Shown here piece by piece: positions 5,760 through 14,377 of a stretch of DNA of 64,000 nucleotides (position 1 is the stretch's first letter; each line of letters starts with the position of its first letter). The notes under the pieces are model-generated. The model was not told where the DNA came from and did no database searches. It saw only the letters and a list, made by a program, of their open reading frames with translations. A program made the translations under genes and the position numbers. The stretch comes from Thauera sp. (GTDB lineage Bacteria; Pseudomonadota; Gammaproteobacteria; Burkholderiales; Rhodocyclaceae): NCBI GenBank assembly GCA_024235615.1, contig JACKMB010000006.1:186001-250000 (forward strand), written 5' to 3'.

Positions 5760-5996
5760 ATGCACGGACGGTGGTGGAGGTGGCTCGGCACGGTGCTCGC
5801 GGTCGTCAGCGGCCTGGTGTTCGGCTGGGTCGCGGGCTCGGGCCTGGTGAACGCGGCACCCGTCGTGGCGACGGATGCCGTGATGCGATCGCCGGTCCAG
5901 CCGCCGGCAGCGAGTGCGCCGAGCGATCAGGCGAGTGCCTTGGCAAGGTGCTCCAGCGCGCGCTTCCAGCCGTCCTCGGCCTCGGCCTTGCGGTAG
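5760..5996 (+). CDS. Small membrane or secreted protein, hypothetical
   Basis: A possible 78-residue protein with a basic start (MHGRWWRW), one hydrophobic segment (about residues 9-31) ending in VNAAPV like a signal-peptide cleavage region, and a short Pro/Ala-rich tail. GGAGGT ends 3 nt before the ATG, which is tight. Codon third positions are almost all G or C over the first 55 codons, as in neighbouring real genes. The last 70 nt overlap the 3' end of the convergent dienelactone hydrolase gene, so the true C-terminus is doubtful. No family recognised. Confidence 0.4.
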   Translation: MHGRWWRWLGTVLAVVSGLVFGWVAGSGLVNAAPVVATDAVMRSPVQPPAASAPSDQASALARCSSARFQPSSASALR

Positions 5997-6829
5997 CTCG
6001 GCCGGTAGTCGGCGTGGAAGGCGTGGGGAGCGTCGGGATAGACGTGGATGGAGCTGCCGCCGCCCGCGGCGGAGAGCGCCGCCTGCATCTTCTCCACGTC
6101 GGCGAGCGGGATGCCCTGGTCCTGGCCGCCGTAGAGCCCGAGCACCGGCGCATGCAGCTTGCCGGCGACGTCGAGCGGGTGCTGCGGGGTGAGCTCCGAG
6201 ACGGCGCCGACGAGACGCCCGTACCACGCCACCCCCGCCTTCACCGACGGCTTGTGCCCGGCGTACAGCCAGGTGATGCGGCCGCCCCAGCAGAAGCCGG
6301 TGATCGCGAGGCGGGCGGGATCGCCACCCTGGCCCGCCGACCATGCGGCGCAGGCGTCGAGGTCGGCCATGACCTGAGCGTCGGGTACCTTGGAGACGAT
6401 GTTCTGCAGGATCGCCGGGATGTCGGGCTGGGTGGTCGGGTCGCCCTGGCGAAAGAACAGCTCGGGCGCGATCGCGAGGTAGCCCGCGTGCGCGAGGCGG
6501 CGGCAGACGTCGCGGATGTGCTCGTGGACGCCGAAGATTTCCTGCACGACGAGGACCACGGGCAAGCGGTCGCCCGCGGCGGGGCGTGCGTAATAGACCG
6601 GCAGCTCGCCGCCCTGCACCGCGATGGCGGCCGTGCCCGCGGCCAGGCCGGTGCTCGCGGTGCTGATCACGGTGCTGGCATGGACGGGCTGCACGGCCAG
6701 CGCGAAGCCGGCGGCGGCGACGCCCGCGAGGAAGCCGCGGCGATCGAGGCGGGTGGCGGGGAGCAGGCTGTCGAACTGGCCGCGCTCGTCATCGGCGGTG
6801 TGCTGCGCACGGCTGGGGGTGGCTTGCAT
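5927..6829 (-). CDS. Dienelactone hydrolase family protein with Tat-type signal
   Basis: An alpha/beta hydrolase of the dienelactone hydrolase family, 300 residues. The catalytic triad is visible: Cys180 in GFCWGG, Asp237 in YGGQDQGI and His269 in PHAFHADY. The N-terminus carries a twin-arginine-like motif (DRRGFLAG, Arg30-Arg31) followed by a hydrophobic stretch ending VHAS, so export in folded form is likely. The ATG at 6829 was chosen over in-frame codons upstream because GGAG lies about 9 nt before it and the signal peptide then begins normally. It stands alone rather than in a chlorocatechol cluster, so the natural substrate is open. Confidence 0.9.
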   Translation of the reverse strand: MQATPSRAQHTADDERGQFDSLLPATRLDRRGFLAGVAAAGFALAVQPVHASTVISTASTGLAAGTAAIAVQGGELPVYYARPAAGDRLPVVLVVQEIFGVHEHIRDVCRRLAHAGYLAIAPELFFRQGDPTTQPDIPAILQNIVSKVPDAQVMADLDACAAWSAGQGGDPARLAITGFCWGGRITWLYAGHKPSVKAGVAWYGRLVGAVSELTPQHPLDVAGKLHAPVLGLYGGQDQGIPLADVEKMQAALSAAGGGSSIHVYPDAPHAFHADYRPSYRKAEAEDGWKRALEHLAKALA

Positions 6830-7621: not shown

Positions 7622-8071
7622 TGGCTTCGTGTTGCGCCGCAGCAAAACGTCGAGCCGGTTGGCGAAGCTGCGTGCATCGGCCGCCGAGAAGGCGCTCGGC
7701 CCGCCCGTGTCGACGCCGGTGGCGCGCAGCGTGTCCATGAAGTTGCGCAGGTCGAGCAGCTCGCGGATGTTCTCGCGACCGTAGAGCTCGCCGCGTGGCG
7801 ACAGGGCGTGGGCATCCTTTGCCACCACCGCGGCGGCGAGCGGGATGTCGGCGGTGATGACGAGGTCGCCCGCGCCGGCATGCTCGGCGATGTAGCGGTC
7901 GGCCTCGTCGAATCCGCCCGGCACCTGGATCATGCGGATCCGCGGCGACGCGGGCGTGCGCAGGAACTGGTTGGCGACCAGGGTGACGGGGTGCCCAGTG
8001 CGCTCGGAGGCGCGGAACAGGATGTCCTTGACGAGCACCGGACAGGCGTCGGCATCGACCCAGATGTGCAT
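7604..8071 (-). CDS. YaiI/YqxD family protein (DUF188)
   Basis: A 155-residue protein of the YaiI/YqxD family, related to PIN/NYN-type nuclease folds. Conserved acidic residues are in [11 protein letters not shown] at the very N-terminus, [13 protein letters not shown], and [12 protein letters not shown]; the family motif [10 protein letters not shown] is also present. The activity of the family is not established; a nuclease role is only suggested by the acidic residues. The ATG at 8071 is preceded by AGGAG at 7 nt. It lies directly after a tRNA-Lys gene and its terminator on the same strand. Confidence 0.92.
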
Positions 8072-8102
8072 GGCGGGACTCCTGCGCGGGCTGGCGCAAA
8101 AG

Positions 8103-8132
8103 AAAATGCCCGGAACGAAGTCCGGGCATTTT
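8103..8132 (-). terminator. Rho-independent terminator downstream of tRNA-Lys
   Basis: AAAATGCCCGGA (8103-8114) and TCCGGGCATTTT (8121-8132) form a perfect 12-bp stem with a 6-nt loop. Read on the minus strand it follows the tRNA 3' end by 10 nt and ends in a T-rich run. Confidence 0.88.
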
Positions 8133-8142
8133 CGGTGAAACT

Positions 8143-8218
8143 TGGTAGGCCGTGCGGGATTCGAACCTGCGACCAACGGATTAAAAGTCCGCTGCTCTAC
8201 CAGCTGAGCTAACGACCC
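8143..8218 (-). tRNA. tRNA-Lys(TTT)
   Basis: The minus strand reads as a full 76-nt cloverleaf including encoded CCA. D-arm region TAGCTCAGCTGGTAGAGCA, anticodon loop CTTTTAA (anticodon TTT) closed by GGA/TCC-containing stem, and T-loop GGTTCGAATCC are all canonical. The acceptor stem pairs over seven positions, with a G-T pair at 1-72. Confidence 0.97.
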
Positions 8219-8330
8219 AAAAGCGAGGCCGAATAATAATGGCCCAGCGGCTGGGCGTCAAGCGTCGAGGTGCGTCGCAGGCGTGCTGTCGAGATGCGCG
8301 CCTTGGCAGGCGCACGGACTACGCACCAGG

Positions 8331-8359
8331 TTGCGCCGAACCCTGCCCGGTCCTATAGT
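8331..8359 (+). promoter_or_regulatory. Candidate sigma-70 promoter of the corrinoid operon
   Basis: TTGCGC (8331-8336), 17-nt spacer, TATAGT (8354-8359), 31 nt before the first ATG. The leader is too short to contain a cobalamin riboswitch. Confidence 0.5.
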
Positions 8360-8389
8360 CGGACCACCCTCTCAAGCCGAAGGACGGCC

Positions 8390-9064
8390 ATGAACGGCCC
8401 GCACTCTTCCGGTCCATCGACCGAGGCGGCATTCCAGCCGCTCGTCGATGCACTCCTGGTCGGTGACCACAAGCTGGCTGCCGCGGTGGCACAGCACCTC
8501 ATCGAGCAGGGTTGCTCGCGCGAACAGGTCGTCACCGACGGCCTGGAGCATGCGATGGGGCTTCTCGACGACAAGTGCACGGTCGAGAGCTTCAACCTGC
8601 TCGAGATCATGCTCGTTGGCCGTGCGGTTTCTGCGGTGGTGCGTGTCCTCTATCCGGACGGCTACGCTCCGACCGAGGGCCGCGCCACCTTCGTCATCGC
8701 CACCCTCGAGGGCGATGTCCACGACCTCGGCAAGAACATCGTGCGCATGGTGCTCGCCGGGAAGGGTTTCCGGGTGGTCGATCTCGGTCGCGATTGCCCG
8801 GTCGACGACCTGGTCGGTGCGGCACAACGCGAGGGCGCGGCGGCGGTGCTCGTCAGCGGGCTCATCAGTCCGGTGGTGAGCCAGGTACGCAAGCTCAGGC
8901 CTGCGCTGCGCGCGTGCGGGCTCGCGCACGTCCCGGTCGTGGCCGGTGGCGCCGCGCTGAAGCAGCTGCGCCCCGAGGCGCTCGACGTCGATTACGTCGC
9001 CGAGAATGCCTTCGACGGCGCGCACTATCTCGAGCGCCACGTGAGCGGCGCACCCACAACATGA
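8390..9064 (+). CDS. Corrinoid-binding protein, methyltransferase-cognate type (B12-binding)
   Basis: A 224-residue MtaC/MtbC-like corrinoid protein, the methyl carrier in three-component methyltransferase systems. An N-terminal helical cap (about residues 15-95, with LLEIMLVGRAV) precedes the Rossmann B12-binding domain. The cobalamin motif is DVHDLGKN at residues 109-116, where His111 should be the lower cobalt ligand; VSGLIS (155-160) and VVAGGAAL match the other two loops. It overlaps the UroD/MtaA-like gene by ATGA (9061-9064). No substrate-specific methyltransferase I gene is next to it, so what methylates it is unknown. Confidence 0.92.
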   Translation: MNGPHSSGPSTEAAFQPLVDALLVGDHKLAAAVAQHLIEQGCSREQVVTDGLEHAMGLLDDKCTVESFNLLEIMLVGRAVSAVVRVLYPDGYAPTEGRATFVIATLEGDVHDLGKNIVRMVLAGKGFRVVDLGRDCPVDDLVGAAQREGAAAVLVSGLISPVVSQVRKLRPALRACGLAHVPVVAGGAALKQLRPEALDVDYVAENAFDGAHYLERHVSGAPTT

Positions 9065-10071
9065 ACAGCCTGGAGCGCATCCTGCGGGCGACCCGGCTGG
9101 AGCCGGTGGACCGCACACCGCTTGTCCCGCAGCTGTTCGGCCATGCGGCGGTCTGCGCGGGCCTGTCGTTGCGCGATTACCTGCACGACGGCGAGGCGCT
9201 GGCACATGCCCAGATCCGCGCGCGCGAGCGCTATCGTACCGACGCGGTCTTCGCCTTCCTGGATTTCGGTGTCGAAGCCGAGGCGCTGGGCGCGCAGCTG
9301 AGTTTCGGGGACGACCGCTATCCCGATGTGGTCGGCTGCGTGCTGGGAGCCGACGACGATCCCGCCCGCCTCCGCCTGCCCGAACCCGCGAGCGCCGGCC
9401 GCATGCCGGTCTGCCTGCGGGCGCTGCGGACCATGCGGCAACGGCTCGGGGACTCCGCCCTCGTCGCGGGGGCCGTGGCAGGCCCGATGACCGCGAGCGC
9501 GCAGCTCTACGGCATCGAGAACGCGCTTTTTCTCGCGATCGACGATCCTCCCCGCCTTGCCGCTGCGCTCGATTTCTCCACCCGGCTGGCCATCCGCTAC
9601 GGGCTCGCCCAGCTCGACGCCGGGGCGCACGCCGTGATCGTGTTCGATCCGGCCGCGTCGCCGGCGGTCGTTCCGCCCGGCTTTTTCCGCGAGTTCCTCG
9701 CGCCGCGGCTCGGGCGAGTCCTGGCGGCCCTGCGCGGCGGCGGCGCGGCCTTCACCTGGCTCAACATCGCCGGCCCCACCGCGGGCATCCTCGACTGCTA
9801 TGCGCACATCGGCGCCGATGTAGCGACCTTCGACTACTACCTGAGCGCTGCCGAGGCCTCTCGCCTGCTGCCGCGAACCTGCCTCGCCGGAAACCTGAAG
9901 TCGCTTGATTTCCTGGACGCTGCTCCGGACGTGGTGAAGCGCGAGGCGCGCGGCCTGGTCGCCGCCTTCGGGGGCCGCGGCGGCTTCCTGCTGTCGAGCG
10001 GATGCGAGATTCCGCCCGAGGCCGCCGCGGGCAACATCGCTGCCATGGCGGCGGCGCTGAACGAGGATTGA
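9061..10071 (+). CDS. Uroporphyrinogen decarboxylase/MtaA-family methyltransferase homologue with altered zinc site
   Basis: A 336-residue TIM-barrel protein of the URO-D/MtaA/CmuA group; in that group MtaA moves a methyl group from a corrinoid protein to a zinc-activated thiol. N-terminus MNSLERILRATRLEPVDRTP and barrel landmarks are normal. The zinc site is not: where the family has H-x-C-G, this protein reads LNIAGPT, giving Asn235 and Ala237; only the third ligand, Cys315 (SSGCEIPPE), is kept. So a thiol acceptor bound through the usual zinc seems unlikely, and the protein may use another acceptor, carry out only docking, or act in sensing. It is coupled to the corrinoid protein (ATGA) and lies 5 nt from the reactivase gene. 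Confidence 0.85.
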   Translation: MNSLERILRATRLEPVDRTPLVPQLFGHAAVCAGLSLRDYLHDGEALAHAQIRARERYRTDAVFAFLDFGVEAEALGAQLSFGDDRYPDVVGCVLGADDDPARLRLPEPASAGRMPVCLRALRTMRQRLGDSALVAGAVAGPMTASAQLYGIENALFLAIDDPPRLAAALDFSTRLAIRYGLAQLDAGAHAVIVFDPAASPAVVPPGFFREFLAPRLGRVLAALRGGGAAFTWLNIAGPTAGILDCYAHIGADVATFDYYLSAAEASRLLPRTCLAGNLKSLDFLDAAPDVVKREARGLVAAFGGRGGFLLSSGCEIPPEAAAGNIAAMAAALNED

Positions 10072-10076
10072 GCGCC

Positions 10077-11684
10077 ATGGCCACCCTGCGAGTCCGCGCA
10101 GGTGGGGCGCTGCATCTGCTCGCGTACGATCCTGACGCCGGGAACTCGCTGCGCGCGATCCTGGAGCCCACGGACTTCCGTGTGCGCACGGCCTGCCTGG
10201 GGCTGGGGGCATGCGGGCTGTGCCGGGTCCGGGTGCTCGCCGGCGAGGTGGGTGCGCCCACCGCGGTCGAGCGCGTCCAGCTCGAGGATGCCCTCCTCGC
10301 CGAGCGCGTCAGGCTGGCGTGCCAGTGCAGGCCGGTGGGCGAAGTGGAGATCGAGGTGCTCAGTCTCGCGCCGCCGTCGAGCTGGCACGTTCCGCCCGGC
10401 GGGCTGGCCTCGATCGGGACCTTGCGCTGGGAGGCGGACCCCGCGCCGTCGCATGCGGTCCCCCGTCCGCTGGGGGTCGCGGTCGATCTGGGAACCAGTC
10501 ACATCAGCGTCGCCTTAATCGATCTCATCGGCGCGCGGCCGCTCGCCCTGCGCGTGGGCGCGAACCCGCAGCGCGCCCATGGCGCGGATGTGATGACGCG
10601 CCTCGTCGCGGCCGGTGATCCGGATCATGCGCGTGCGCTCGCCAGCCTGGCGCGCGCGGCCGTGGGCGAGGCGCTCGGCGAGATCGCCCGCAGCGAGGGC
10701 ATCGATCTGCGGCGCGTGCGCCGCGTGCTCGTGGTCGGCAACACGGCGATGCTGAGCCTGCTCGCGGACAGGAACCACCAGCGCCTGCTCGAGCCCGCCA
10801 ACTGGTCGCTGCCGATCGATTGCGCGCCGCTCGAGACCGCTTCATGGGGGCGAGAGTGGGGGCTCGCGCCGGAAGCCTCGATCGAGGTGGTGGCGCCGCT
10901 GGCGGGCTTCGTCGGATCGGATCTGCTTGCGGGCGTCGTCGCCGAGCGCATGCCCGAGCTGCGCACGCCCGGTCTGCTGATCGATTTCGGCACCAACTCG
11001 GAGATCGCCTTGTGGTCGGGCGACACGCTCTGGGTGACCGCTACCGCCGGGGGGCCGGCGTTCGAGGCCAGCGCGGGGCGGGACTGCATCCCTGCCGAGG
11101 CCGGCGCCGTGGTTCGCGTGCGTGAAGGCGAGGGGGGCGCGCTCGAGTGCGACATCATCGCCGGCGACGAGCCCAGGGGGCTTTGCGGCTCGGGCCTCGT
11201 AGACCTGCTGGCCTGCCTGCTGCGACAGAGGCGCCTCGGGCCGCGCGGCCGCTTCAGCGACGGCAGCGAGCGTGTCGAGTTCGAGGTGAACGGCCGTGTG
11301 CTCGGCCTGGGCTGGCGCGAGGTCGATGCCCTGCAGCGCGCGAAGGCCGCGATCGGCGCAGGCATGAAGGTGCTGTGCGGCTGCGCCGGCGTGGATCCGT
11401 ACGCGCTGCAGCGGGTCCTGGTCGCGGGCCTGTTCGGGAGCCATCTCGATCTCGACAGCGCGGCGGCGATCGGCCTGCTGCCACGTCTCCCGGAGGGGCG
11501 CGTGGTGCTCGTCGGCAACACCGCGCTCGCGGGTGCATGTGGCCTGCTGCTGTGCGCGGATGCGCGGCGCATGCTCGAGCGCGTGCGCGCGTGCGCACGC
11601 TTCGTCAATCTCGGCCGCATGGCGGCGTTCGACGAGGCCTTTCTGGACCAGCTTTTCCTCCAACCGATGGGCTCCCCGCCATGA
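10077..11684 (+). CDS. RACo-like corrinoid reductive activator: [2Fe-2S] ferredoxin domain plus ASKHA ATPase (DUF4445)
   Basis: A 535-residue protein that should reduce inactive Co(II) corrinoid back to Co(I) using ATP. The N-terminal ferredoxin domain (residues 1-90) has Cys40, Cys46, Cys49 and Cys82 in the C-x5-C-x2-C...C pattern. A linker is followed by an actin-like ATPase: AVDLGTSHISVALID (about 137-151), VLVVGNTAML, LLIDFGTNSEIALW (phosphate-2 loop), GPAFE and VLVAGLFGSHLD. The end, FVNLGRMAAFDEAFLDQLF, matches the family C-terminus. The start ATG at 10077 was selected because it begins the ferredoxin strand. The 3' end overlaps the HD-GYP gene by ATGA, which is unusual for this family. 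Confidence 0.9.
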   Translation: MATLRVRAGGALHLLAYDPDAGNSLRAILEPTDFRVRTACLGLGACGLCRVRVLAGEVGAPTAVERVQLEDALLAERVRLACQCRPVGEVEIEVLSLAPPSSWHVPPGGLASIGTLRWEADPAPSHAVPRPLGVAVDLGTSHISVALIDLIGARPLALRVGANPQRAHGADVMTRLVAAGDPDHARALASLARAAVGEALGEIARSEGIDLRRVRRVLVVGNTAMLSLLADRNHQRLLEPANWSLPIDCAPLETASWGREWGLAPEASIEVVAPLAGFVGSDLLAGVVAERMPELRTPGLLIDFGTNSEIALWSGDTLWVTATAGGPAFEASAGRDCIPAEAGAVVRVREGEGGALECDIIAGDEPRGLCGSGLVDLLACLLRQRRLGPRGRFSDGSERVEFEVNGRVLGLGWREVDALQRAKAAIGAGMKVLCGCAGVDPYALQRVLVAGLFGSHLDLDSAAAIGLLPRLPEGRVVLVGNTALAGACGLLLCADARRMLERVRACARFVNLGRMAAFDEAFLDQLFLQPMGSPP

Positions 11685-13168
11685 GTGCAGTGTCATCCGG
11701 TCCGCGCACCCCGGTGGATGCCGTGGTCCGTACCGCGCAATATCTTGCCGGCATCGTCTCCTATGAGGGGCTGTGGCCCCAGCTCGGGCGCCTCGTGCGC
11801 AACTTCTTCGGTGCGGACGTGGCCGCCTTCATCGCCCGCGAGGGGGAGGGCGGCGAGCGTTGCCTGCACTGCGAGCCCGACTGCCCGATGCTCGCCGCGG
11901 CGTGTGCGGAGGCCACCGCCATGGTGTTCGAGAGCGGCTTCCTCGCCACCGAGGCGGTGCGGATCCCCGAGCCGCACGAGGTGATCCTGCTGCCCATCGG
12001 CCGCGAGCGGCAGCGCACCGCCTACGTGCTCATCGCAGCCCATCGGGGCGCCACGGCGCTGTCCCGCGACACGCTGGACCTGTATCTCGCGCTGGCGGGC
12101 CTGATCGAGACCACGCTCGATCGCATCGCCTCCCAGCATCGCTTCCTCAGCATGGCCGACAACGTGCCCGAGCTGCTCTTCCAGTTCGTCGAGCACGATG
12201 GCCGCTGGATGTTCAATTATGCGAGCGGCGGCGCTCGGGCTGCGCTCGGGCTCGAAGCCCAGGCCCTGATCGCGGATCCGGCGTTGCTGTTCGCGGGGCT
12301 CGATGAAGCCGGGGGAGGCCGCCTGCTGGAGGCCCTGCGCGCCAGCGCCGCCGGTCGCCGTGTGCATCTGCCGCTGTGCTGGCGGGCGCCCGACGGGGGC
12401 CTGCGCCACCTCCTGCTCGATGCCGTCGCTGCCACCGGAGAACAGGGCCGTCCCGTCTGGGATGGCGCGCTGCGCGACATCAGCGAGCAGGTCCGGCTCG
12501 AGGAAGAGAGCCGGCGCAACCTGGTGCGCCTGAACAAGAGCATGGAGGACGCCATCCAGGCGATCGCGACCACGATCGAGAAGCGGGACCCCTATACCGC
12601 GGGCCACCAGCGCCGTGTGGCCGATCTCGCTGCCCGCCTCGCCGCCGCCCTCGGCATGCCCGACGAGCAGATCCACGGGATCCGCCTGACCGCGGCCATC
12701 CACGACATCGGCAAGATCCACGTGCCGGCCGAGATTCTGAGTTACCCCGGGCCCTTGCCGGAGATCGAGTTCGCCCTGATTCGCACCCACCCCGAGGTCG
12801 GCTACGAGATCCTCAAGAACGTGGACTTCCCGTGGCCGGTCGCGGAGATGGTGCTCCAGCACCACGAGCACCTGGACGGGTCCGGCTATCCGCGCGGCTT
12901 GCGGGGCGACGCGATCCTGCTCGGGGCGCGCATCATCACGGTCGCCGACGTCGTCGAGGCGATCGCCCTCTACCGGCCGTACCGACCCGGCCTCGGGGTC
13001 GACACCGCGCTGGCGGAGATCGAGCGCAGCCGGGGGGCGCGCTACGATCCCGCAGTGGTCGATGCGTGCGTGGAACTGTTCCGCGGGCAGGCTTACTGCT
13101 TCCCCGAAACCGCCGATCCAGGTCGTGTGTTCGCGCGTGCGCCCGCACATCGCAAGCCGGAGGGATGA
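11681..13168 (+). CDS. GAF-PAS-HD-GYP cyclic-di-GMP phosphodiesterase
   Basis: A 495-residue sensor phosphodiesterase. Residues about 20-155 form a GAF-like input domain containing a cysteine cluster Cys61-x2-Cys64-x3-Cys68-x6-Cys75 (CLHCEPDC), which could bind a metal or cluster. Residues about 165-285 are PAS-like (MADNVPELLFQF, then WDGALRDISEQV). A short helix leads to the HD-GYP domain (about 300-480) with GHQRRV, HDIGK (His341-Asp342), RTHPEVGYEIL, HHEHLDGSGYP (GYP at 402-404) and RPYRP, all expected for an active c-di-GMP phosphodiesterase. No transmembrane helix. It is translationally coupled to the corrinoid reactivase gene, so its input may be the state of the corrinoid system. Confidence 0.92.
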   Translation: MSAVSSGPRTPVDAVVRTAQYLAGIVSYEGLWPQLGRLVRNFFGADVAAFIAREGEGGERCLHCEPDCPMLAAACAEATAMVFESGFLATEAVRIPEPHEVILLPIGRERQRTAYVLIAAHRGATALSRDTLDLYLALAGLIETTLDRIASQHRFLSMADNVPELLFQFVEHDGRWMFNYASGGARAALGLEAQALIADPALLFAGLDEAGGGRLLEALRASAAGRRVHLPLCWRAPDGGLRHLLLDAVAATGEQGRPVWDGALRDISEQVRLEEESRRNLVRLNKSMEDAIQAIATTIEKRDPYTAGHQRRVADLAARLAAALGMPDEQIHGIRLTAAIHDIGKIHVPAEILSYPGPLPEIEFALIRTHPEVGYEILKNVDFPWPVAEMVLQHHEHLDGSGYPRGLRGDAILLGARIITVADVVEAIALYRPYRPGLGVDTALAEIERSRGARYDPAVVDACVELFRGQAYCFPETADPGRVFARAPAHRKPEG

Positions 13169-13183
13169 GGTCTAGCGGGGGCG

Positions 13184-13203
13184 CGCCTGCAACCTCGCAG
13201 GCG
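13184..13203. terminator. Short hairpin between convergent genes
   Basis: CGCCTGC (13184-13190) and GCAGGCG (13197-13203) form a 7-bp stem with a 6-nt loop 15 nt after the HD-GYP stop. No T-tract follows, so it is a weak terminator candidate. Confidence 0.3.
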
Positions 13204-13270
13204 GCGTGGTACTCGTGTCCCCGCCCCCGGCCGCGGGCGCGCATCGCGGTGGGCGACGGCCCCGGCCCGC

Positions 13271-14377
13271 TCAGGGCGCGCGCGTCAGCAGCCAGTACTG
13301 GAGCTTCATCGTCGCGGAGGCGCCCGCGATGATCGCCGCAGTGGTGAGGGCTGCGCCGAGCGCCAGCGTCGACAGCCCCGAAACTCCCTGGCCGAGCGTG
13401 CAGCCGAGCGCGGTGACGCCACCGAAGCCCATCAGCAGGCCGCCCGCGATGTGGCGCACGAGGTCGGCGGGGTCGCGGAAGCTCTCGATGCGGAAGCTGC
13501 GCGTGGCCAGCGCCATCGCCGCGGCGCCGGCGATCACGCCGAGCGCGCTGGCGATGCCGAAGCTCATCTGGCGGTTGGCGTCGCTCCACAGCAGCAGCAG
13601 TTCCAGCGTGAAGGCCTGCGGGGCGACGAAGCTGAGCGACTCGGCGCGGCCGCTGTTGGTGGCGAGGAAGACCTCCTCGAGGGTGTCGGGGTGCTCGGCG
13701 ATGTGGCCGAGGTGGCCGGTGACGTACCAGCCCGCCACCACCGCGAGGCCGACGATGGCGCCGCCGAGCAGCACCTCGGGGCGGCGCGCGTCGCGGCTCG
13801 CCAGCGCCCAGGCGAGCAGGCCGCCGCCGGCGAGCGCGCTGGCGGCGAGCAGCGCGCTGCCAGCGTCCATGCCGGCCGCGGCGAGGAAGGCGGGCAGGGT
13901 CTGGGCGTGGGGCAGCTGCAGCGCGACCGGGTCGAGAAGCTCGACCCGCCACACGCCGGTGAGCCCGCGCAGGGTCATCGAGGCGCCGATGGCGAGGAAG
14001 ACGAAGACCACCACCGACTTGAGGTTGCCGCCACCGATGCGGATCAGGGTCTTGCCGGCACAGCCGGAGGCGAGCGTCATGCCGACGCCGAAGGCGAGCC
14101 CGCCGACCACGTGCGACAGCCAGGGCAGGCGGGCGCCGGTGTAGATCGTCCTGGCGGGGTCGAAGAGCCCGAGCGCCTGCAGTACGCCCGTGCCGAGGAC
14201 GGCGATGGCCACCGCGAGCGCCCACATCCGCATGCGCGTCCAGTCGCCGATGTTCACCGCATCGGATACCGCGCCCATGGTGCAGAAGCCGGTGCGCTGG
14301 CTGGAGGCGCCGAACACGGCGCCGATCGCGAAGCCGAGCCAGACGATGGTGGAGGCGGAGACGAGGGCGTGGTCCAT
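13271..14377 (-). CDS. YeeE/YedE family transporter (thiosulfate/sulfur-compound uptake type)
   Basis: A 368-residue inner membrane protein with two DUF395-type halves and about nine helices. The conserved cysteine motifs of the family are present: Cys32 in RTGFCTMGAVSDA, Cys106 in ASGCAGKTLIRIGGGNLKS, and Cys326 in LGCTLGQGVSG. In characterised YeeE (TsuA) such cysteines line a thiosulfate path. The usual TusA-like partner (YeeD) is not adjacent. The start ATG at 14377 is 15 nt downstream of the queC stop, so it probably shares the queEC transcript; a sulfur link to queuosine synthesis is not implied by known chemistry. Confidence 0.88.
   Translation of the reverse strand: MDHALVSASTIVWLGFAIGAVFGASSQRTGFCTMGAVSDAVNIGDWTRMRMWALAVAIAVLGTGVLQALGLFDPARTIYTGARLPWLSHVVGGLAFGVGMTLASGCAGKTLIRIGGGNLKSVVVFVFLAIGASMTLRGLTGVWRVELLDPVALQLPHAQTLPAFLAAAGMDAGSALLAASALAGGGLLAWALASRDARRPEVLLGGAIVGLAVVAGWYVTGHLGHIAEHPDTLEEVFLATNSGRAESLSFVAPQAFTLELLLLWSDANRQMSFGIASALGVIAGAAAMALATRSFRIESFRDPADLVRHIAGGLLMGFGGVTALGCTLGQGVSGLSTLALGAALTTAAIIAGASATMKLQYWLLTRAP

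Follow-up and report, generated by a model that had tools for sequence, protein, structure and literature searches.

The proteins of corrinoid methyl transfer are familiar as enzymes. Here we analyze a stretch of 64,000 nucleotides from Thauera sp. (contig JACKMB010000006.1, positions 186,001 to 250,000; the whole stretch is called the window below), in which a corrinoid protein, a MtaA/CmuA-like protein of the uroporphyrinogen decarboxylase (UroD) fold and a RACo-type reactivase are encoded directly upstream of a predicted phosphodiesterase of cyclic di-GMP (c-di-GMP). We refer to the first three genes as the trio and to all four as the quartet. Comparison of related loci in other genomes suggests that the trio is very probably the input side of a signalling unit.

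Among described systems, MtaABC and MtbABC provide the comparison for the UroD-fold protein. It differs from MtaA and MtbA in that the first zinc-ligand cysteine is absent, that scores lie below the family cut-offs and that the protein is coupled here to a signalling protein. The reactivases RACo/AcsV and RamA combine ASKHA domains with a [2Fe-2S] domain, as does the window's RACo. However, the latter reaches 207 of 800 bits against AcsV, far below the cut-off, and its gene precedes a signalling gene. HD-GYP phosphodiesterases of c-di-GMP have their motifs in common with the window's fourth protein, but differ in input domain and operon context.

Two further kinds of system are precedents for parts of the quartet. 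In the passages describing the mec cassette of dichloromethane degraders (PMC9768040), a corrinoid protein, a MtaA/CmuA-family protein (MecE, annotated as a methyltransferase I) and a histidine kinase are clustered, as in the quartet. Unlike the quartet, the cassette as described there also has a methyltransferase II, further methyltransferases I, a transporter and a response regulator, and its kinase carries a PocR domain and was proposed to respond to the substrate. In cobalamin photoreceptors, a B12-binding domain controls a signalling output, as we propose for the quartet: photocobilins couple light reception by B12 to a diguanylate cyclase (PMC10979010), and in other proteins B12 domains that respond to light are fused to diguanylate cyclase, GAF or MEDS domains (PMC11796333). 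In contrast to the quartet, these proteins sense light within a single fused chain, and no methyltransferase or reactivase is described in the relevant passages of these two papers. The sequence match obtained here was weak (8j2y, "GGDEF domain-containing protein", E-value 3e-4). The main text of a census of c-di-GMP stimuli does not mention cobalamin, B12 or corrin (PMC8846402). We recognized no description of the quartet in literature searches, which covered mostly titles and abstracts and had most subscription papers and preprints outside their coverage. The quartet thus appears to be new as a system; its parts belong to known families.

The initial annotation of this DNA had called for a survey of the four-gene order in other genomes. 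Using an alignment of five RACo sequences, we collected 76 loci in genome contigs (L numbers below) and mapped profiles of the four window families onto them. The fourth gene is represented by its N-terminal region, which we call the constant domain and whose profile has 158 positions (about 158 residues). Loci of type A have the order corrinoid protein, UroD-fold protein, RACo, signalling gene; those of type B have the order RACo, corrinoid protein, UroD-fold protein. The constant GAF domain adjoins RACo in 45 of the 76 loci. All four genes are present in 41 of these 45, while L037, L084 and L085 are truncated where their contigs begin and L100 is a decayed copy. Where the trio occurs in type A order and sequence continues past RACo, 41 of 42 loci have a fourth gene with the GAF domain, the exception being L083. 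In L073, which is not counted in the 42, the trio order occurs without the domain and the contig ends inside RACo. The remaining loci are 21 of type B, the undecidable L076 and seven with distant RACo proteins (27-31% identity); these seven, of which six are Heimdall- or Hodarchaeota by title and one is Chloroflexota, lack the quartet. The proposed association of the trio with a signalling protein is thus upheld, and the recurrence of the order in many phyla is more than would be expected by chance.

Record titles of type A loci give ten phylum names, and two methanogens are among the hosts. Named strains include Dechloromonas agitata is5, Sulfuricella sp. T08, Desulfobacter latus AcRS2 and Thiorhodococcus minor DSM 11518. 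The quartet is also present on pTs417, a complete plasmid of Thiodictyon syntrophicum, where it is annotated as a cobalamin-dependent protein, a UroD family protein, an ASKHA protein and a sensor diguanylate cyclase, the last of which carries a GAF domain 29.5% identical to that of the window. The constant domain occurs in 10 of 399 genomes of the order, with RACo directly upstream in all ten, and among 398 genomes across the phylum it occurs in the Thauera source genome only. Each of 22 type A genomes, which had been selected for having the domain, contains one full-length copy behind RACo; one of them has an additional 26-residue piece at a contig edge. Four type B genomes contain no constant domain. 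In these whole-genome searches (399 genomes of the order, 398 of the phylum and 26 from our loci), no full-length copy was found away from RACo. As a control, we inspected distant RACo relatives (33-37% identity) in the family and order, comprising 11 loci, some overlapping, at seven places; at none of the seven was the domain found nearby (E-value at most 1). Sequences were used unmended, including split UroD-fold frames in L045 and L061 and a shortened RACo in L100. The last, a Lamprocystis copy (L100:6975-9422), looks decayed, with a short RACo and half a GAF domain. L052 (2305-6364) has two tandem corrinoid-UroD pairs followed by one RACo and one hybrid kinase.

The fourth protein of the window matches Pfam HD_5 (E-value 1.5e-38) and the structures 5z7c (4e-39) and 4mcw (1e-30), and it has the HD and GYP motifs, whose residues we take to be metal ligands. 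Because these motifs are intact, the output in Thauera should be c-di-GMP breakdown. The annotated architecture GAF-PAS-HD-GYP is confirmed by Pfam in its HD part only: neither PAS nor GAF is matched at an E-value of 0.01 or better in the window's own protein. Pfam does recognize PAS in the orthologue of L029, and structure prediction gives the constant domain a GAF fold with a mean predicted local distance difference test (pLDDT) score of 87.4. No solved protein matched the constant domain by sequence at an E-value up to 1, and GAF_2 or GAF_3 was matched in few fourth proteins (L039, L071, L088 and, weakly, L029). We also considered that the domain could be PocR or another named Pfam domain, but no such match occurred in the proteins scanned.

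While the N-terminal domain is constant, the output is not. In the type A set of 47 loci (the window, L018 and the 45 domain-bearing loci), the output could be classified for 41 fourth genes, giving 15 HD-GYP, 13 GGDEF and 13 histidine kinase proteins. Unclassified are L046, L048 and L056 (contig edge), L037 (contig edge after PAS domains), L057 (PAS only) and L100 (decayed). Breakdown of c-di-GMP, which the initial annotation had in view, is therefore not the constant output, and c-di-GMP is one output among several. The absence of an HD-GYP gene beside the trio in most relatives had been named as an observation that would speak against the proposal. Taken literally, this is the case; however, the relatives concerned have other outputs on the same input domain. 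Some fourth genes are minimal, with only GAF and GGDEF (L042, L043, L086) or only GAF and a kinase (L050, L053). A RACo tree with 41 labelled rows, made by a quick method and unresolved at 22 of 76 inner branches, requires the output class to have changed at least five times. The closest swap is between L064 (GGDEF) and L072 (kinase), whose RACo proteins are 77% and GAF domains 73% identical (in a domain alignment that excludes L048 and L100), although the GGDEF match of L064 spans 60 of 161 profile positions and its frame is perhaps broken. Outside this group, the next closest swap, between L038 (GGDEF) and L029 (HD-GYP), is at 57% RACo identity. Since the same domain is found with swapped outputs, it behaves as an input domain with exchangeable outputs. 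At the level of sequence, comparison of the loci thus shows that the four genes are one unit, that the unit has a signalling output and that outputs have been swapped on a constant input domain.

As side observations on the fourth gene, a Tll0287-like domain, possibly a second input, precedes the constant GAF domain in L040, L052 and L067. There is an apparent fusion RACo-GAF-PAS-GGDEF in L055 (5034-7790), and one of UroD and RACo in L040 (1838-4495).

Family assignments of all four proteins by the initial annotation hold in Pfam and NCBIfam searches. The corrinoid protein (224 amino acids) matches the Pfam B12-binding domain (PF02310) above its cut-off (E-value 1.6e-18) and the helical cap PF02607 with 21.2 bits, slightly below the cut-off of 23. 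It has the helical cap and the Rossmann domain with D-x-H-x-x-G that characterize MtaC/MtmC-type proteins, and MtaC-type and MtmC structures are among its structure matches. The motif is retained in all 45 type A sequences, including that of the window, and in all 23 lower-scoring type B sequences. No domains besides the two B12 domains were found, so the protein lacks the fused bilin or output domains of a photocobilin. The window's RACo matches RACo_C_ter (E-value 5.5e-52), Raco_middle and the 2Fe-2S domain Fer2, all above the Pfam cut-offs, and thus has the complete RACo-type architecture of 2Fe-2S, middle and C-terminal ASKHA domains. We take its solved relatives 3zyy and 4c1n to be RACo and its complex.

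The UroD-fold protein is the most ambiguous member of the trio. It matches Pfam URO-D (E-value 8.4e-62) and has a UroD-type barrel for which MtaA is nearest, but it obtains 147 bits with NCBIfam TIGR01463, whose curated cut-off is 235.4. We located in the alignment the columns of His-x-Cys...Cys, presumably the zinc ligands of MtaA, and this set is incomplete in the 46 type A rows. The His column has H in 24, N in 18 (including the window), F in two and a gap in two; the first Cys column has A in 38, T in five, P in one and a gap in two, such that Cys is absent from all 44 filled rows; and the last Cys column has C in 44 and a gap in two. There are 33 invariant columns over 43 rows. One of them, the new cysteine Cys274, was considered as a substitute metal ligand, which is unlikely: in the secondary structure it is placed at the start of a strand, while the residues on the zinc side come after strands. 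It had been stated that no substrate-specific methyltransferase I is adjacent. That statement is not safe, in that the MtaA/CmuA family includes MecE, annotated as a methyltransferase I in the passages on the mec cassette (PMC9768040), and the UroD-fold protein may itself be a methyltransferase I.

We investigated whether the source genome and the neighborhoods of the loci contain partner enzymes. The source genome has one RACo and two UroD-family genes, one of them HemE-like and the other that of the operon. The two methyltransferase I families searched, MTTB (PF06253) and MtaB (PF12176), have no match in it. The pterin-binding domain PF00809 occurs at two places, in a 309-amino-acid frame and in a 1290-amino-acid frame that includes a B12 domain, which we read as FolP and MetH, respectively. 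A complete methylotrophic corrinoid pathway, with an MTTB or MtaB methyltransferase I or a methyl-tetrahydrofolate methyltransferase II, was thus not found. Clustering of the open reading frames (ORFs) that flank 46 type A loci gave no family present in most loci. The widest cluster covers 11 loci at scattered distances and on both strands, and both members that were scanned (L031, L051) are signalling proteins; the next covers five loci, with a sigma-54 activator as its member in L054. Ten chosen neighbors comprised four regulators, two dehydrogenases, an HlyD-type protein, a CBS protein and two without match. We therefore rejected a catabolic cluster with a methyltransferase I or II nearby, as these clusters give no such common family. 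The sensory role that had been favored over a full catabolic pathway agrees with the GAF-domain fourth gene in 41 of 42 loci and with the partner methyltransferases not found in the genome. The quartet seems to require nothing else nearby. In the Chloroploca loci L042, L043 and L086, a 537-amino-acid frame upstream of the corrinoid gene overlaps the operon start; that of L042 is a double short-chain dehydrogenase, which may hint at a substrate.

Within the genus, a RACo of at least 83% identity was seen in three genomes; 29 Thauera genomes were searched in this comparison. Five of the genus (G002, G004, G017, G016 and G003) lack the operon, and in them the matches to its flanks are 51-100 bp apart, compared with 5.0 kb in the window; therefore the quartet was gained or lost here as a unit.

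We consider it somewhat more probable than an even chance that the four proteins make up a self-contained system of signal transduction, in which methyl loading of the corrinoid is the signal and the GAF domain its reader. In this model, RACo would use ATP and electrons from ferredoxin to bring the carrier's corrinoid to Co(I), and the MtaA-like protein would load the carrier with a methyl group from a methyl donor. A reactivase is necessary only where Co(I) is used. If no second methyltransferase drains the carrier, its loading, i.e., methyl-Co versus Co(I)/Co(II), would mirror the donor supply; we propose the loading state as the signal because no draining enzyme was found. The GAF domain would then read this state by touching either the carrier or RACo, and the attached output would relay it, namely HD-GYP in Thauera and GGDEF or a histidine kinase elsewhere. 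It is important to distinguish the steps of this model. Methyl transfer and reactivation by the trio are what the protein families lead us to expect; that the methylation or redox state of the corrinoid is the signal is inferred; and what exactly is sensed, with which partner the GAF domain interacts and the sign of the response are conjecture. The proposal that the corrinoid or methyl state is sensed and reported as c-di-GMP thus survives as to the corrinoid-sensor unit, but not as to c-di-GMP as the constant report. Whether the quartet exemplifies a class widespread among bacteria and methanogens, with a corrinoid machine as sensor, one GAF domain as reader of the methyl or cobalt state and exchangeable outputs, we judge to be evenly balanced. 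If the model is true, a new principle of sensing would be at work, namely the covalent loading of a cofactor with methyl groups, and ATP-driven corrinoid reactivation would be spent on signalling. The model would supply an input for a part of the numerous c-di-GMP enzymes and kinases that lack an assigned signal, and genes beside sensors that are now annotated as "uroporphyrinogen decarboxylase family" or "ASKHA domain" would call for re-annotation. The minimal GAF-GGDEF proteins make the sensing model directly testable.

Several observations weigh against this model. The GAF domain might bind a small ligand instead, and, given the incomplete zinc site, methyl transfer by the UroD-fold protein is not assured. 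The 21 type B loci among the 76 keep the trio in another order without the constant domain. Most type A loci are metagenome-assembled; the fusions in L040 and L055 are each seen in one metagenome contig and could stem from errors in the sequence, and the closest output swap involves the doubtful GGDEF frame of L064. In L083, 208 bp remain between RACo and the contig end, and the domain is not encoded there in any frame. This segment (L083:8621-8829) is a repeat element with inverted arms of 23 nucleotides, and a 16-mer from it recurs at 5984-5999, between the corrinoid and UroD-fold genes; the fourth gene of L083 may lie beyond the contig end. L083 alone favors the view that the adjacency is due to chance or is an annotation artefact, which is hardly credible in light of the 41 of 42 loci, the empty sites in Thauera and the correlation among the four parts in their pairwise distances between 42 loci (r 0.86-0.93, compared with a permutation maximum of 0.30), which partly reflects shared host descent.

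A more serious alternative, although we still regard it as unlikely, is that the trio is an ordinary demethylation set whose UroD-fold protein is the methyltransferase I, and that the GAF protein senses the substrate and adapts behavior to the methylated compound being consumed. GAF domains commonly bind small ligands. The mec cassette is a precedent in that, as described in the passages available (PMC9768040), it unites a corrinoid protein, a MtaA/CmuA-family methyltransferase I and a PocR histidine kinase. However, among the families tested the source genome has no enzyme that would accept the methyl group except the presumed MetH, no fifth gene is common to most loci, and outputs of the HD-GYP and GGDEF classes do not regulate transcription of the operon. 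It is less likely again that the corrinoid is a redox or gas sensor (nitric oxide, O2), with RACo determining the balance between Co(II) and Co(I), the GAF domain reading it and the UroD-fold protein serving as a scaffold. The loss of the first MtaA zinc cysteine in all 44 filled type A rows would fit this, and many hosts belong to genera of denitrifiers, iron or sulfur oxidizers, anoxygenic phototrophs or anaerobes; a scaffold, however, would not need the conservation observed in the UroD-fold protein, which retains the last cysteine of MtaA in each of the 44 filled rows. Adjacency alone gives no direction, and the fourth protein could instead regulate the trio by contact, its catalytic output being secondary. 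This is very improbable, as three unrelated catalytic outputs on the same domain are typical of input domains.

Type B nests inside type A in the RACo tree, and therefore the link to the GAF domain was lost or replaced there. In the UroD-fold proteins of type B, all three zinc residues of MtaA are missing from the filled rows (24 rows, including L100). Type B is possibly a second, further diverged sensory branch, judging from these sequences. In L062, L065, L066, L070, L077, L087 and L090, the corrinoid and UroD-fold parts are in one frame of about 563-625 amino acids behind RACo. Kinases near L062, L065 and L087 carry an ethylene-receptor-like ETR1_N domain, and HD-GYP response regulators are encoded near L074, L080 and L082.

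In the window, the four ORFs are on one strand and exactly where they had been annotated, with junctions of ATGA (9061-9064), 5 nucleotides (10072-10076) and again ATGA (11681-11684). The coordinates of these and other features are listed below.

Table. Features of the quartet and its surroundings, in positions of the window
Feature	Position	Strand	Remarks
Corrinoid protein	8390..9064	+	Two B12-binding domains; base-off motif GDVHDLGK
MtaA/CmuA-like UroD-fold protein, candidate methyltransferase	9061..10071	+	
RACo-type ASKHA corrinoid reactivase with N-terminal [2Fe-2S] domain	10077..11684	+	Pfam; solved relatives 3zyy, 4c1n
Predicted GAF(-PAS)-HD-GYP phosphodiesterase	11681..13168	+	Motifs EKRDPYTAGH, HDIGK, HHEHLDGSGYP
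Constant GAF-fold input domain common to fourth genes	11681..12157	+	
Presence/absence unit (the quartet), absent in one piece from 5 other Thauera genomes	8263..13261	.	
Putative promoter TTGCGC-N17-TATAGT	8331..8359	+	Block conserved in 3 Thauera species

The single promoter of the initial annotation was not recovered in a scan for consensus promoters on the + strand. The conserved block nevertheless has hexamers at 8331-8336 and 8354-8359 with 8 of 12 consensus bases, and such a promoter is plausible from the sequence, though unproven. A scan for RNA elements at 7900-13500 gave no known element except a tRNA. This tRNA-Lys (8143-8218), just upstream of the operon and beside the Thauera presence/absence site, is on the opposite strand, as is what reads as a gene in the sequence downstream from about 13271, with relatives in other Thauera; the operon therefore stands alone. 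The nearest match to the window's RACo is that of T. phenylacetica B4P, with 89% identity.

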